Assembly: GCA_020847855.1 (NCBI GenBank)
Contig: JADLBH010000025.1
Location: 1-64,000, forward strand
DNA: 64,000 bases
Origin: Fimbriimonadaceae bacterium
GTDB taxonomy: Bacteria; Armatimonadota; Fimbriimonadia; Fimbriimonadales; Fimbriimonadaceae
Direction: 5' to 3'
Of this stretch, positions 1-57,508 are shown one piece after another. A model generated the notes under the pieces. That model saw only the letters and a program-made list of their open reading frames with translations. It was not told the origin of the DNA and did no database searches. Both the position numbers and the translations under genes were made by a program. Position 1 is the stretch's first letter. Each line of letters opens with the position of its first letter.

Positions 1-375
1 ACGCCCTGAGCGCGGACCGGATCGAGGTCGGGGGAGGCGTGTTCCTGCAGTCGATGGCCGGGGGCACACGGTTCGAGGCGGCAGGGGAGGTGCGGCTCCT
101 CGGGGCCAAGATCGGGGGGCAGCTGAGTTGCACTGGCGGGTCGTTCCAGAACGCGACCGGCGACGCCCTGAGCGCGGACCGGATCGAGGTCGGGGGAGGC
201 GTGTTCCTGCAGTCGGTGGACGGGGGCCCTCGGTTCGAGGCGGCAGGAACAGTGCGGCTCCTCGGGGCCAAGATCGGGGGGGGACTGAGCTGCGTCGGCG
301 GGTCGTTCCAGAACGCGACCGGCTTTGCCCTGACCGCGGACGGGATCGAGGTCGGGGGCGCGGTCTTGGTGCGCC
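1..375 (+). repeat. 162-bp tandem repeats inside the coding region
   Basis: The stretch beginning at base 1 recurs at 163 and, more diverged, at about 325, giving a period of 162 bp (54 codons). The first two copies are almost identical at nucleotide level over their first 50 bases, which suggests recent duplication. More copies probably lie upstream of the window. Confidence 0.85.
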
Positions 376-51417: not shown

Positions 51418-52002
51418 ATGCAGCGGAACCGCATGGAGGCCTTTAGCGACGGGGTCTTCGCCATTGCCATCACCATCCTTGTTCTGGAGCTCAAGGTGCC
51501 CCACGAGGTCGGCTGGCCCGCGCTCGCTGGTCTCAAGAACGTGTTCCTCAGCTATGTCATGAGCTTCTTGTTCATCGGGCTCTACTGGAACAACCACCAC
51601 CACCTGGTGCACACAGTGGACCGAGTGACAGGGCGGATCCTCTGGGCGAACCTCCATATGCTCTTTTGGATCTCGCTGATCCCGTTCGTCACCGCTTGGA
51701 TGGGTGAGAACGACTTTGCCAACGTACCTACCGCGTTGTATGGGGTTGTGATGCTGTTCAGCGGTACAGCATATAAAATCTTGCAGACCGCGATCATTCG
51801 CGAGCACGGAGATACGCACAAACTAGCGGTCGCGATCGGGAAGGACTTCAAACTCCTGGCTTCTTTGACGATCTACGCGATGGCGATCCCGACGAGCCTT
51901 TTTTCTCCTTGGCTCGCTTTCATGCTCTATGGAGTAGTCGCATTGATCTGGTTCATCCCGGATCGCCGCATCGCTTCCCAATTCAGGCCTCCCGAGGTAT
52001 AA
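51418..52002 (+). CDS. TMEM175-like potassium channel (DUF1211)
   Basis: A 194-residue protein with about six helices. MQRNRMEAFSDGVFAIAITILVLE carries the RxxxFSDG signature of TMEM175 family channels, and NNHHHLVH follows. Bacterial members form tetrameric potassium-conducting pores. The TAA stop at 52000-52002 is inside the TATAAT hexamer of the selenoprotein gene. Confidence 0.88.
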   Translation: MQRNRMEAFSDGVFAIAITILVLELKVPHEVGWPALAGLKNVFLSYVMSFLFIGLYWNNHHHLVHTVDRVTGRILWANLHMLFWISLIPFVTAWMGENDFANVPTALYGVVMLFSGTAYKILQTAIIREHGDTHKLAVAIGKDFKLLASLTIYAMAIPTSLFSPWLAFMLYGVVALIWFIPDRRIASQFRPPEV

Positions 52003-52003
52003 T
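51998..52003 (+). promoter_or_regulatory. TATAAT promoter hexamer of the selenoprotein gene
   Basis: Perfect -10 consensus, exactly six bases before GTG 52010, overlapping the stop of the TMEM175-like gene. It supports GTG 52010 as the true start. Confidence 0.6.
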
Positions 52004-52009
52004 GCAGCT

Positions 52010-53098
52010 GTGATCGCGCACCTCGTCGCCCTCATGGTGACGGACACGCTGACAGAGCGGGTCAAGTCGGTGATGCCGACGGCCGCGGAGGAGCGATGGC
52101 TCGAGATCGGCTGGCGCACCGATATCCGCAAGGCGAGGATCGAAGCCCAAGAGGCGGGCAAGCCGCTCTTCTTTTGGGTTATGAACGGACACCCCATGGG
52201 ATGTACGTGAAACAACGGACTTTGGGACCGTGCGTTCCTCTTTAGCGACCCAGAAATCGCACAACGGCTGAGAAAGGAGTTCGTGCCGGTCGTCGCAAAC
52301 ACGCACGAGGTTCAGAACGGTCAGTCGCCGGAGCGGGCCTGGTTCTTGTCTGCGGCGACCCAGGTCAAACCAGACATCGCGTCCGGGATCACCGCGCAAG
52401 GAAAGTACGTCCTAGGCGCTGAAGGTAGCGCCTATGGGTTCAACAACAACCGGAGCACCGAGCGGTTGGGCAACATGCTCGACGAAGCTCTGAAGAAGTT
52501 CCGTGCGAGCCCACCGGCCCGAACGGATATTCCCCCCTCCCATGGTCATCCTACCGGCCTCGAATGGCCCAAGGACGTGAGCGTCGTGCGCACGTTCACC
52601 CGGGTTCGGCCGCTGCCCGAGGGTTGCGACCCCATGAACGAAAACGTTGCACGAGACCACCTTTGGATCCTTCCTCAGGAAGCCGCCACCCTTGCAAAGC
52701 ACGAGTTTCCAGACAGCCTTGCCACCCGAATCTGCCGGTTCTCACTCGTGGACAATGTGCGCGGGGAGCCGGATCATTGGAAGCCCGAAGAAATCGAAAT
52801 GAGCGCGTTTTGGCCCTCGGGCGATGGTGAGTTCACGGGGATCTTCTCGATGAAGACCAAGGACGGCTCGCGCGGGATCCAGGGCACGTTGGCGATCGAA
52901 GCCTCGCTCCAAGACGGGAAGCTTGCAAGGTTCCAAGCCTACGGCAGCGCCGCGGCTTGGGGTCGAAGCACCTACACACCAGGCGAGCCACCGGGCCGCT
53001 TCCCCCTCGTGTTCGCGTTCGTCCTCGCGGACGACGAGATAGCTCGGCAAGTGGCGCCGCAAGCGGTCTTCTATGGCAAGGAGTACCTGGGGCGCTAG
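52010..53098 (+). CDS. Probable selenoprotein with thioredoxin-like motif (TGA read as Sec)
   Basis: A 362-codon frame from GTG 52010 to TAG 53098 with a single internal stop, TGA at 52208-52210 (codon 67). The frame stays intact before and after it. Flanking sequence: KPLFFWVMNGHPMGCT, then TGA, then NNGLWDRAFLFSDPEIAQRLRKEF. A Cys at 65 and the TGA at 67 sit at the end of a beta strand (PLFFWV), as in thioredoxin-fold redox motifs, and SDPE...EFVPV matches the following helix-strand of thioredoxin-like domains. Decoding as selenocysteine would give a Cys-x-Sec pair. A hairpin downstream fits a bacterial SECIS. The C-terminal 250 residues are unassigned. A pseudogene or sequencing error is the alternative. 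Its stop forms a CTAG shared with the convergent MscS gene. Confidence 0.75.
52220..52245 (+). other. SECIS-like hairpin after the in-frame TGA
   Basis: GGGAC (52224-52228) pairs with GTTCC (52234-52238, one G-U pair) around a five-base loop CGTGC. C220-T221 can pair with A244-G245 across an internal loop. The G at loop position 2 is 20 bases after the TGA, within the spacing I recall for bacterial SECIS elements (G early in a small apical loop, roughly 16-37 bases from the TGA). A competing hairpin, ACGG (52215-52218) with CCGT (52228-52231), is possible. Confidence 0.55.
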
Positions 53099-54148: not shown

Positions 54149-55792
54149 CTACCCGGTCTGTGAGACCTTCAGGTCGAGGACGTTCCACCAGGTCTGGGCA
54201 CCGGAGACCCCTGAGGTCTGCTCGGTGGTGAGCTTGAGCTCGACGCGACCGTCGTTTCGGATGTAATCGCCAGAGTTCCCCACGTCGGTGACCTGGAAGC
54301 GGCGCCGCAGCGCGTCCATCCGGTAGGCGCGAACCTGCACGAACTGGTCGTCCGACCACCTCCGGAAGGACACCCGAAGGAGGGCGCCACCTGCCGACAT
54401 CTGACCCACCGCCTCGAAACCCAGCGTCGCGATGTTGGGCGTTGTGGTCTTGAACATGGCGATGACACCGGTCTTTCCCGGCACGGCGGGCACAGGGGCC
54501 AGCTTGAGCAGGTGCTGGTCGTCTTGGACGGCGTGCCGGGCGCCCCCGGAAGCGATCCGACCGTCGGAAGCCACGACCGTCCGCAACGCGGTTCCCATAA
54601 GGTCAATCGCGAGCAACCGTCCCTGATAGTCCACGATCCAAGCCTCGCCCGAGCTGTCCACATCGAGCGAAGAAATGTTCCCGAGCGAGGCGCCGAGTTC
54701 GAGCTCCTGGGTGTGCTCGCGGATGTCAATCCCGTTCCACCGGCCCGTGCGGGAGTCGAACGCGAACTTGCACGACCAAAACCGTCCCGAGACGAAGTCA
54801 CCGTAGAAGTACCGGCCGAAGAACGGCCTCCCCAACTTGAGACCACGGTACACGTGACCTCCCGTGATCGAGGAACCCTGGGAGTGGTCGTAGACGAGCG
54901 CCGGACGCGTGTCGGGCATGAACGCCGTGGGGCCTGGGGCATAGAACATGTTTCCTTCTCGGCGAGCCCATCCGAAGTTGTGCCCGCTTTGCCCTCTTGG
55001 CACATAGTTCACCTCCTCCCAAGTGTCCTGCCCGACGTCCGCGATCACCATTGCACCGTTGCCGAGCAGCCTTAGGTCGTCGAAGCTGAACTTCCAGGGG
55101 TTGCGCAGCCCAAAGTCGAAGACCTCGGGGAGGGCAGTGATGGGCTCACCGTCCAGAAACGGGTTCGTGGGCGGTATCGCATAGTTCCGCAAGGGATCGC
55201 TCGGGAACCCGTCCGTACGGGGGTCAATCCGTAGCATCTTTCCCAAAAGCGACTGAGGGTTCTGTGAATAGTTCGAAGGGTCGCCTGCGCTACCACCGTC
55301 CCCGGTCGGCAGGTAAAGGTACCCATCAGGACCGAAGGCGATGGTGCCCGCGTTGTGGTTGAAGAACGGGCGCACAGTGCGTAGGATGTTCCGGCGACTG
55401 CCGGGCAAGGCGAGCGTCGGGTCGTTGGGGTTGCGCTGGTATCGGGCGAGCTGCATGAGCGAACCTGGAGCGGAAAAGTTCACATAGAAGTAGCGGGTTT
55501 GGGCGTAGTCGGGCGGGAAGGTGAGCCCGAGCAGCCCGCGCTCGCCCCCCACCGTGACCACCGAGCTAAGGTCGAGGAACGGTCGGCTCAGGAGCACGTT
55601 CCCTTCGAGGACCAGGATCTTGCCGCCTTGCTGCACCACGAACCTTCGCGTGGACGAGGTCGGATCTTGGATCACGGCGATCGGGGACTCAAGCCCGGTC
55701 AGGACTTCGCGAGCGCGTAGCCCGGACTGTGCCGAAGCAAAGCCGGCGAAAAGCGCGACCACGAGAAACGTAGGGGCGAAGCGCGTGCGCAT
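54149..55792 (-). CDS. Secreted PQQ-dependent glucose/sorbosone dehydrogenase-like protein (copy 1)
   Basis: A 547-residue secreted protein from ATG 55792, with a signal peptide ending FASAQ. The beta-propeller of the GSDH/HHIP type has FFNHNAGTIAFGPDGYLYLPTGDGGSAGDP, GKMLRID, ALPEVFDFGLRNPWKFSFD, VIADVGQDTWEEVN, GHNFGWARREG and FFGRYFYGDF. These enzymes oxidise sugars with PQQ in the periplasm, but many members are of unknown function. A C-terminal region of about 110 residues is extra. Homologous to the next gene, same strand, so probably a tandem duplication. Confidence 0.8.
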   Translation of the reverse strand: MRTRFAPTFLVVALFAGFASAQSGLRAREVLTGLESPIAVIQDPTSSTRRFVVQQGGKILVLEGNVLLSRPFLDLSSVVTVGGERGLLGLTFPPDYAQTRYFYVNFSAPGSLMQLARYQRNPNDPTLALPGSRRNILRTVRPFFNHNAGTIAFGPDGYLYLPTGDGGSAGDPSNYSQNPQSLLGKMLRIDPRTDGFPSDPLRNYAIPPTNPFLDGEPITALPEVFDFGLRNPWKFSFDDLRLLGNGAMVIADVGQDTWEEVNYVPRGQSGHNFGWARREGNMFYAPGPTAFMPDTRPALVYDHSQGSSITGGHVYRGLKLGRPFFGRYFYGDFVSGRFWSCKFAFDSRTGRWNGIDIREHTQELELGASLGNISSLDVDSSGEAWIVDYQGRLLAIDLMGTALRTVVASDGRIASGGARHAVQDDQHLLKLAPVPAVPGKTGVIAMFKTTTPNIATLGFEAVGQMSAGGALLRVSFRRWSDDQFVQVRAYRMDALRRRFQVTDVGNSGDYIRNDGRVELKLTTEQTSGVSGAQTWWNVLDLKVSQTG

Positions 55793-55867
55793 ACACCCCA
55801 GACGTTCCACATCCCGACGATTGCTCGGTCGCCAGGCGACGAAGCTCTCGAATCTGAGATCCGGAAC

Positions 55868-57508
55868 CTAGTCCACCGACACCGATGCGGCTTCGACGCT
55901 GAGACGCAGCGAAGAAGCGAGCAAGATGCCGTTGTACGCCATGGAGACCCGGCACTGCACGTTGCCCCCTGCGTCCACGAACTTCGTTCCATCGAGCCCA
56001 GTGGCGGATAGGGTTCCCAGTGCAGCGCCCCAGTTTCCCGTCGCAACGGACTCGAAGAGACCTGTGTTCCAGTTGCGGCACTCCAGCGTCACTGGGACGA
56101 CGAGGGCCTGGCTGACCTTGCCGGTTACAGAAACCCCGACAAGGGTACGAGAGGCTCGGTTCGTTCGAGCATCGAAGTCAACGCCTGCACGGAGTGGAGA
56201 CGTGGAGGCGAGGCGGAGGGCCTGGACGTCGAACGTCTTGCCGTCCGAAAGGAGTAAGGATCGAACCTGGCCACCGAGATAAGGGCCCTGGACGGCACGT
56301 GCGTCGGTAAGCCACGTCGTCTCTTGCCGGACGATACGGTTCACGGTCCCAGCGTAGTCAATCAGGAACATCTCCCCGGCACCGTCCACCCCGAAGGACG
56401 AAACGTTCGCAAACCCGACGCCTCCGAAGTCGGCGGTGTGGTCTCGAACGTCCATCACTGTTGCCTCGCCGGTAACCGGGTCCAGGCTCAGCCCGAGCGA
56501 CCAAGCCCTACCGGCAATATAGTCGGCGAAGAAGTAGCGACCAAAGTACTCAGGCCCAAGCTGGAGGCCCCGATACACGCCACCGCCGGTCACGGACTGG
56601 CCCAGCGTTCTCGGGTACTCGTGGATCGGGGGGGTGTGGGGCCCATAGGCGAGCGCGGTCCCGGCGTTGTGTACGAAGGTGCCTTCGAATCGCCGCCAAC
56701 CGTAGTTCCGCGCACCACTGCCCGCAGGCTCATAGTCCACCTCCTCGCGGGTGTTTTGGCCGACGTCCGCGAGCACCATCGCACCCGTGCCCAGCTTTGT
56801 CGGGTCGTCGAACGCGAACTTCCAGGGATTACGGAGCCCGAATGCCCAGATTTCTTCGAGGGCAGGTACGGGCGGGTTGTTGACGGGTCGGAACGGGTTG
56901 CTCGGAGGGATCCTGTAGTTCCTCTCAGGGTCGGTCGGGAAGTCGTCGCCCGTGGGGTCGAGCCGGAGCATCTTGCCCAAGATCTGGGTCGGTGTCTGGG
57001 CTCGGTTTCCCGGATCGCCGCTACTACCGCCGTCGCCGGTCGGGAGATAGAGGTATCCGTCCGGCCCGAACCGGATGCAGCCTGCGTTGTGGTTCGAGAA
57101 CGGCCTCAAAGTGCGGAAGATGTTGAGTCGTGTAACGGGATCAACCGTCAAGGCGTCGCCTAGCCGCGTGTAGCGGGCGAGCTGCATGAAGACGCCGGTC
57201 GTCGTGAAGTGGAAATAGATGTGCCCGGAGGTTGCGTGATCCGGGGCGAAGGCCATGCCCAGGAGTCCGCGCTCGTTGCCGATGAGCACCGGCAGGGTGA
57301 TGAGCGGCGTGGGTAGGAGCACCCCGTCCTGCACGACCCTTACGGCGCCCGACTGGTTGAGGACAAACTGGACGTTGGGCCTTAGCGGGTCTTGAACGAT
57401 CTCCACAGGGCGGTCGAAGCCCGAAACGACGGGAACAATGCTGAGCGGCTGCGCGAGCAGGGCTCGCGCAGAGAGGGTGAGTGCAAGCAAGGGCAGATAG
57501 CGTTTCAT
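55868..57508 (-). CDS. Secreted PQQ-dependent glucose/sorbosone dehydrogenase-like protein (copy 2)
   Basis: A 546-residue paralog of the gene that follows it in transcription order. Signal peptide ARALLAQ; propeller blocks PFSNHNAGCIRFGPDGYLYLPTGDGG, GKMLRLDPTGDD, EIWAFGLRNPWKFAFDD, VLADVGQNTREEVDYEP, RNYGWRRFEGTF and YFGRYFFADYI align with copy 1. The C-terminal extension differs. The 75-base gap between the copies has no terminator that I see, so they may be co-transcribed. A 6-bp hairpin (57520-57537) lies in the leader. Confidence 0.8.
   Translation of the reverse strand: MKRYLPLLALTLSARALLAQPLSIVPVVSGFDRPVEIVQDPLRPNVQFVLNQSGAVRVVQDGVLLPTPLITLPVLIGNERGLLGMAFAPDHATSGHIYFHFTTTGVFMQLARYTRLGDALTVDPVTRLNIFRTLRPFSNHNAGCIRFGPDGYLYLPTGDGGSSGDPGNRAQTPTQILGKMLRLDPTGDDFPTDPERNYRIPPSNPFRPVNNPPVPALEEIWAFGLRNPWKFAFDDPTKLGTGAMVLADVGQNTREEVDYEPAGSGARNYGWRRFEGTFVHNAGTALAYGPHTPPIHEYPRTLGQSVTGGGVYRGLQLGPEYFGRYFFADYIAGRAWSLGLSLDPVTGEATVMDVRDHTADFGGVGFANVSSFGVDGAGEMFLIDYAGTVNRIVRQETTWLTDARAVQGPYLGGQVRSLLLSDGKTFDVQALRLASTSPLRAGVDFDARTNRASRTLVGVSVTGKVSQALVVPVTLECRNWNTGLFESVATGNWGAALGTLSATGLDGTKFVDAGGNVQCRVSMAYNGILLASSLRLSVEAASVSVD

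Follow-up and report, generated by a model that had tools for sequence, protein, structure and literature searches.

Closest Described Systems

The nearest catalogue entry to the family described here is VPGUxxT (NF041382/NF041383), a group of (seleno)proteins that are likewise thioredoxin-like, and its two models were the only selenoprotein models to touch the family (best E-values 0.01 and 0.0044, 3 of 56 members each). The protein under study was rejected as a VPGUxxT protein, with 12.7 bits against a cut-off of 275 for NF041383, GCTU in place of VPGU, and a C-terminal domain left unmatched. The CxU thioredoxin-like Sec.1 group (PF13192) of a 2026 catalogue (PMC13188914) has in common with the family a Cys-x-Sec motif and a thioredoxin-like description, and matches to PF13192 were found in none of the 56 members. 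By fold, the closest proteins are the DsbD gamma domain, DsbH, ERp18/AGR and Thioredoxin_7-type proteins (3f9u, 1sen, 3ph9, and 2fwe), which share the thioredoxin fold (Z about 9–13.6). In the predicted structure, selenocysteine (Sec) occupies the position of their attacking Cys, whereas CxxC is absent, the partner Cys lies at -2 and not +3, and an extra C-terminal domain is present. Thioredoxin_7 (PF13899) gave weak matches in 4 of 56 members (best E-value 0.0064) and none for the protein itself.

Apart from the weak NF041383 match, no family in Pfam, NCBIfam (June 2026) or PHROGs covered the protein, in keeping with the suggestion of the initial annotation that the family may be undescribed. 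None of the 119 families/subfamilies in PMC13188914 was recognized as this family. Main-text literature on the motif and on selenoproteins of Armatimonadetes or Planctomycetota yielded no description of it. A recent groundwater survey, as cited in a review, contains unvalidated selenoprotein candidates, and it is possible that the family is already listed in a supplement or another paper.

Glycine reductase selenoprotein A (GrdA) was once thought to be the sole selenoprotein without Cys homologues, but a 2025 paper (PMC12013277) reports such homologues for it and states that no known selenoprotein now seems to lack them. According to its authors, deep-Sep may filter out families that lack Cys homologues (PMC12013277). 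The present family, unlike GrdA, has nearly none. We know of no sequence relation between the two.

Reading Frame and Redox Motif

The window, i.e., the whole stretch of 64,000 nucleotides that was analyzed, comes from a Fimbriimonadaceae bacterium. The features of the locus were as follows:

51998–52003, + strand: TATAAT, -10-like hexamer of a probable leaderless promoter, ending 6 nt before the start codon
52010–53098, + strand: gene for a predicted selenoprotein of 362 residues, starting at GTG and ending at TAG, with TGA decoded as Sec
52013–52039, + strand: short hydrophobic N-terminus (residues 2–10), probable export signal
52091–52513, + strand: predicted thioredoxin-fold domain (residues 28–168)
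52202–52210, + strand: putative Cys65-Thr66-Sec67 redox motif (TGT ACG TGA)
52224–52238, + strand: SECIS-like hairpin, stem 52224–52228/52234–52238, loop 52229–52233, assigned by comparison with relatives
52577–53035, + strand: predicted C-terminal beta-rich domain (residues about 190–342)

The frame ran from GTG 52010 to the TAG at 53096–53098 with a single in-frame TGA at 52208–52210. The initial annotation had described one TGA in an otherwise intact frame of 362 codons, and this was borne out, the halves on either side aligning over their full length with homologues at 31–53% identity. The Cys that it had placed two residues before the TGA was likewise found (codon 52202–52204, followed by a Thr codon at 52205–52207), the motif around the TGA being MNGHPMGCT-U-NNG. 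The CxxC, UxxC or CxxU motif of classical thioredoxins was absent from the protein, which has C-T-U with Gly at +3. TGA closed 21 of the 59 open frames of at least 300 codons in the window, a count that includes non-gene frames, and is thus a normal stop codon there. On the - strand, two tandem long ORFs at 54149–57508 (553 and 546 aa) were alike (NHNAG, GPDGYLYLPTGDGG) and are probably duplicated sugar-dehydrogenase-like genes.

Selenocysteine Machinery

The host genome (2.5 Mb, 97% complete) encodes the complete Sec machinery. The search for selA, selB, selD, and selC proposed in the initial annotation recovered all four: tRNA-Sec (G000:C10:21851-21941) at 69.5 bits against a cut-off of 47, and, each above its cut-off, SelB at 316.9 bits (covering positions 2–580 of 581), SelA at 434.6 bits, and SelD at 361.8 bits. 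The SelD locus (G000:C10:43359-44279, L152) contained an in-frame TGA of its own, in CAGUAGKL, a known Sec site of SelD; the genome therefore holds at least one other selenoprotein gene besides that of the window. A profile search found no second copy of the window family in the host genome.

Among 101 Armatimonadota genomes, in which tRNA-Sec was scored as present at a match above 60 bits, 30 had both a TGA homologue and tRNA-Sec, two a TGA homologue only, 30 tRNA-Sec only, and 39 neither. The TGA homologues tracked tRNA-Sec across this panel (Fisher p = 7e-7, kinship of the genomes being ignored). Both TGA-only genomes (G053 and G078) were incomplete assemblies, each with a SelB match. A strong tRNA-Sec was also present in 15 of the 16 carriers reached via motif-scan loci, among the matches listed.

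Conservation of the TGA and Spread of the Family

Homologues occurred in 38 of the 101 genomes (100 relatives and the host genome), most with exactly one in-frame TGA, and the TGA fell at the identical codon in every aligned TGA locus of the panel. The motif was then scanned for across 84,980 species genomes with the third base of the Sec codon free, so that TGT/TGC (Cys), TGG (Trp), and TGA were equally permitted; the pattern itself dictates conservation of the residues that it fixes, but not of the TGA. At least 116 stretches were obtained, and among the matches listed all 80 loci read had TGA and none had Cys. With duplicates removed, TGA stood in 99 of 99 distinct contexts read. According to record titles, the carriers among the matches listed were Planctomycetota, Armatimonadota, Chloroflexi, Marinimicrobia, and Latescibacteria, so that the family would span at least five bacterial phyla. 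One further locus (L065, on JADZEW010000008.1, 469,815 bases) is titled Methanoregulaceae archaeon, but its contig agrees in length and in the motif of the family protein with G011:C8, which belongs to an Armatimonadota genome of the taxonomic family of the window; the archaeal title is probably wrong.

A family profile in which Sec was modeled as Cys, so that Cys forms were not penalized, was run against the phyla to which four carriers belong and gave 160 matches with one in-frame TGA, a count in which TGA positions were not checked one by one. Planctomycetota had matches in 85 of 294 genomes (∼29%), with one TGA in 112 of 132 matches. In the phylum of the Chloroflexi-titled carrier 11 of 400 genomes were positive (15 TGA matches), in that of the Marinimicrobia-titled carrier 14 of 245 (13 TGA matches), and in that of the Latescibacteria-titled carrier 18 of 64 (28%; 20 TGA matches). 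Within Armatimonadota, 58 of 291 genomes (20%) carried the family, some as distant homologues. Among gene neighbors, no partner was common beyond close relatives, and none was conserved in a way that pointed to a function.

Cysteine Forms and Loss of Selenocysteine

Homologues with Cys in place of the TGA, usual for selenoproteins though not obligatory, had been expected to support a Sec reading, and they hardly exist: Cys stood at the Sec codon in none of the 99 distinct contexts. In the phyla of the four carriers, most non-TGA profile matches did not reach the Sec codon, and six that covered it (L180–L185) had no Cys in the motif, with Ser in one, Asp in one, Asp or Glu in one, and remodeled loops without Cys in three. 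The sole Cys-bearing paralogue (L016 in G070) had a rearranged motif, PSCDDCNAP. Two Armatimonadota genomes (G034 and G045) had Ser at the Sec codon and had lost the partner Cys; both lacked a tRNA-Sec match exceeding 60 bits and a SelB match exceeding its cut-off. The Ser-carrying G034 also had a full-length SelB-like match below the cut-off (187 bits; G034:C146:31813-33609), possibly a remnant of a lost Sec system. A third genome (G005) combined an Asp copy with tRNA-Sec and SelB. The initial annotation had held that a non-Cys residue at this codon would speak against Sec; such copies do exist, but Ser in genomes without a clear tRNA-Sec and Asp in the Sec-using G005 are better read as loss of activity. 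More distant thioredoxin families (L158–L161, L164) had Cys at the position equivalent to Sec67, which supports a catalytic role for this residue.

Adjacent family copies, one with the TGA and one without a redox residue, were seen at G462:C321, G412:C37, and G501:C104, and their sequences suggest pairs of active and inactive paralogues. A related family with Cys directly before Sec (RCUGG; L165, L166, L185) occurred in other Armatimonadota and one Planctomycetota genome, the non-Sec Asp copy of L185 adjoining an RCUGG-type gene. One copy (G117:C93:71444-72412) had four internal TGA and one TAG and is apparently decaying. We regard it as reasonably probable that the family is large, Sec-dependent, spread over at least five phyla and essentially devoid of Cys counterparts, and that loss of Sec leads to inactive Ser, Asp or Glu relatives.

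Hairpins Downstream of the TGA

The hairpin, noted in the initial annotation as SECIS-like, consisted of GGGAC (52224–52228), the loop CGTGC (52229–52233), and GTTCC (52234–52238), with five base pairs of which one is G-U. The bSECIS model calls for a loop of 3–9 nt with G within its first two positions, a stem of 4–16 bp, and 16–37 nt between UGA and loop (PMC13188914), and the hairpin fits this geometry with a loop of 5, a stem of 5, G at loop position 2, and a TGA-to-loop distance of 18 nt. It does not reach the energy limit of the same model (MFE ≤ -7.5 kcal/mol), at -3.7 kcal/mol alone and -5.4 kcal/mol for the constrained fold of the 46-nt context, of which it was not the MFE fold (pair probability 0.02). 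Since a subset of putative bSECIS elements fail the published model (PMC13188914), this limit is not a strict requirement.

Anchored at the TGA, the family sequences align without gaps. How often every possible helix occurs was compared with shuffles in which synonymous codons were drawn from the same gene. Of 13 non-redundant close relatives in the subgroup of the window (A1), 12 kept the hairpin, where shuffles averaged 5.7 (p about 0.002; the helices were chosen by scanning the same data, which makes these p-values a little too favorable, those for B1 the least), and one two-sided change, G-U to U-A in L012, preserved the pair. A helix was found in 4 of 5 A2 sequences (shuffle mean 0.32), while B2 had a helix in 7 of 11 (0.93) and a second hairpin in 6 of 11 (0.66). 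The clearest case was B1 (NNGVIAR), in which a stem at +17..22/+28..33 was present in 17 of 18 non-redundant genes against a shuffle mean of 0.36, and the hairpin-forming Arg codon was AGR in 18 of 19 genes compared with 35 of 645 other Arg codons of the same genes (p = 1.5e-20). Hairpins thus exceeded synonymous shuffles in all four subgroups, B1 fitting the bSECIS loop pattern best, and there is RNA-level selection on the post-TGA hairpins of these subgroups. Global MFE downstream of the TGA was far less sharp than this position-specific test and only mildly positive (mean z -0.42 versus -0.07; window +1.2). The proposed hairpin, weak in isolation, gains weight only from the relatives, from which we infer the SECIS of the window gene.

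N-Terminus and Promoter

A hydrophobic N-terminal stretch was present in 79 of 92 family members (window value 2.7), and lipobox-like sequences in five of the 92, which together make a location in the cell envelope likely. The TATAAT at 51998–52003, which overlaps the TAA of the upstream ORF, had been taken in the initial annotation as showing that the whole frame is expressed. The hexamer is indeed there and the relatives fit a leaderless start, but alone it is weak and is no proof of expression. A TANNWT hexamer began 10–16 nt ahead of the start codon, most often at -12, in 12 of the 29 members, ∼29 times above the upstream background; this placement points to leaderless transcripts and favors GTG 52010 as the initiation codon. 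Hexamers of the -10 type about 12 nt before starts were seen at 51998–52003 in the window and in L002, L004, L006, L009, L015, L021, L022, and L027, and leaderless transcription may be common in the group to which the window belongs.

Predicted Structure and Chemistry

The AlphaFold2 model, built with 56 sequences, had a mean pLDDT of 94 and a pTM of 0.90. Comparison of its residues 28–168 by VIA-align gave a Z of 13.6 to 3f9u (rmsd 1.9 over 107 residues), with further matches to ERp18, AGR3, DsbH, and the DsbD gamma domain, so that the thioredoxin-like character first proposed from the sequence is backed by the modeled fold. In the model, Sec67 immediately precedes helix 68–77. It aligned with the first Cys of CTNC in a DsbD-like homologue (L164), the second Cys of which corresponds to Gly70. 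The partner Cys shifted to -1 in L030, L165, L166, and L191 and was lacking in L186 (R-T-Sec); with its position varying, Sec is the more constant element.

The C-terminal domain, in which the initial annotation had recognized no known domain, was predicted alone with a pLDDT of 94.6 and reached a best VIA-align Z of 5.4. De novo barrels, START-like, nitrobindin-like, and outer-membrane proteins were tied at this value, and because of the tie no relation is claimed. Foldseek gave no confident match for the whole model or for this domain, and a PDB sequence search with the window protein returned weak matches only.

In the mechanism we propose from the comparative evidence, SelB with Sec-tRNA-Sec would read UGA 52208–52210 as Sec67, aided by the hairpin just downstream. 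Sec67 would then sit at the N-terminal end of the active-site helix, in the place taken by the attacking Cys in DsbD-like CxxC proteins, with Cys65 as the probable resolving thiol and a Cys65–Sec67 selenenylsulfide presumably formed in the catalytic cycle. The C-terminal domain probably binds a substrate or partner. The product is likely a thioredoxin-fold selenol oxidoreductase of the cell envelope that carries a beta-rich domain at its C-terminus, and we see about an even chance that its reaction is peroxide or disulfide reduction in the cell envelope.

Alternative Readings

We hold with high confidence, a confidence that leaves the substrate aside, that the window gene encodes a true selenoprotein in which TGA is decoded as Sec within a thioredoxin fold. 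This interpretation, already put forward in the initial annotation, draws on comparative data, namely the TGA conserved across phyla, the machinery, and the co-occurrence with tRNA-Sec. Against it weigh the weak hairpin of the window, the near absence of Cys homologues, the Ser, Asp, and Glu copies, and a partner Cys that is not universal. Were the TGA an ordinary stop, the locus would yield a product of 66 residues, a separate protein of 271 residues from GTG 52283, or both, or it would be a pseudogene or sequencing error; TGA does end 21 of the 59 long ORFs and a downstream start is available. A stop is nevertheless very improbable with a TGA invariant over at least five phyla, flanks conserved as one fold, co-occurrence with tRNA-Sec and RNA-level selection on the hairpins, and neither a decayed gene nor an error is expected to recur at one codon. 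The thioredoxin-like relatives with Cys at the equivalent position (L158–L161, L164) would suit a UGA decoded as Trp, Cys or Gly instead of Sec, whether through suppression or through a variant genetic code. This too has a very small probability, as TGA terminates other ORFs of the window, the Sec pathway of the genome is complete and includes the TGA-containing SelD, the distribution follows tRNA-Sec, and the hairpins match the bSECIS loop pattern, B1 best.

A selenoprotein with chemistry other than thiol-disulfide or peroxide reduction, e.g., a dehalogenase-like reaction or a handling of metals or metalloids of which sulfur is incapable, is rather unlikely. It would explain why Cys hardly ever takes the place of Sec and why Sec gives way to non-redox residues, which suggests a reaction that Cys performs poorly, and a C-terminal domain without a clear known relative would suit it as well; yet nearly all members combine a thioredoxin fold with a Cys close to Sec, as is usual for redox proteins, and nothing specific indicates another substrate.

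Significance

Read as selenoproteins, the members of this family would be, on present sequences, a near exception to the view that all known selenoproteins have Cys homologues. In annotations, their genes probably appear truncated or broken in two. Current selenoprotein searches rely largely on pairs of Cys and Sec forms, and the family apparently lies outside the catalogues, possibly for that reason.
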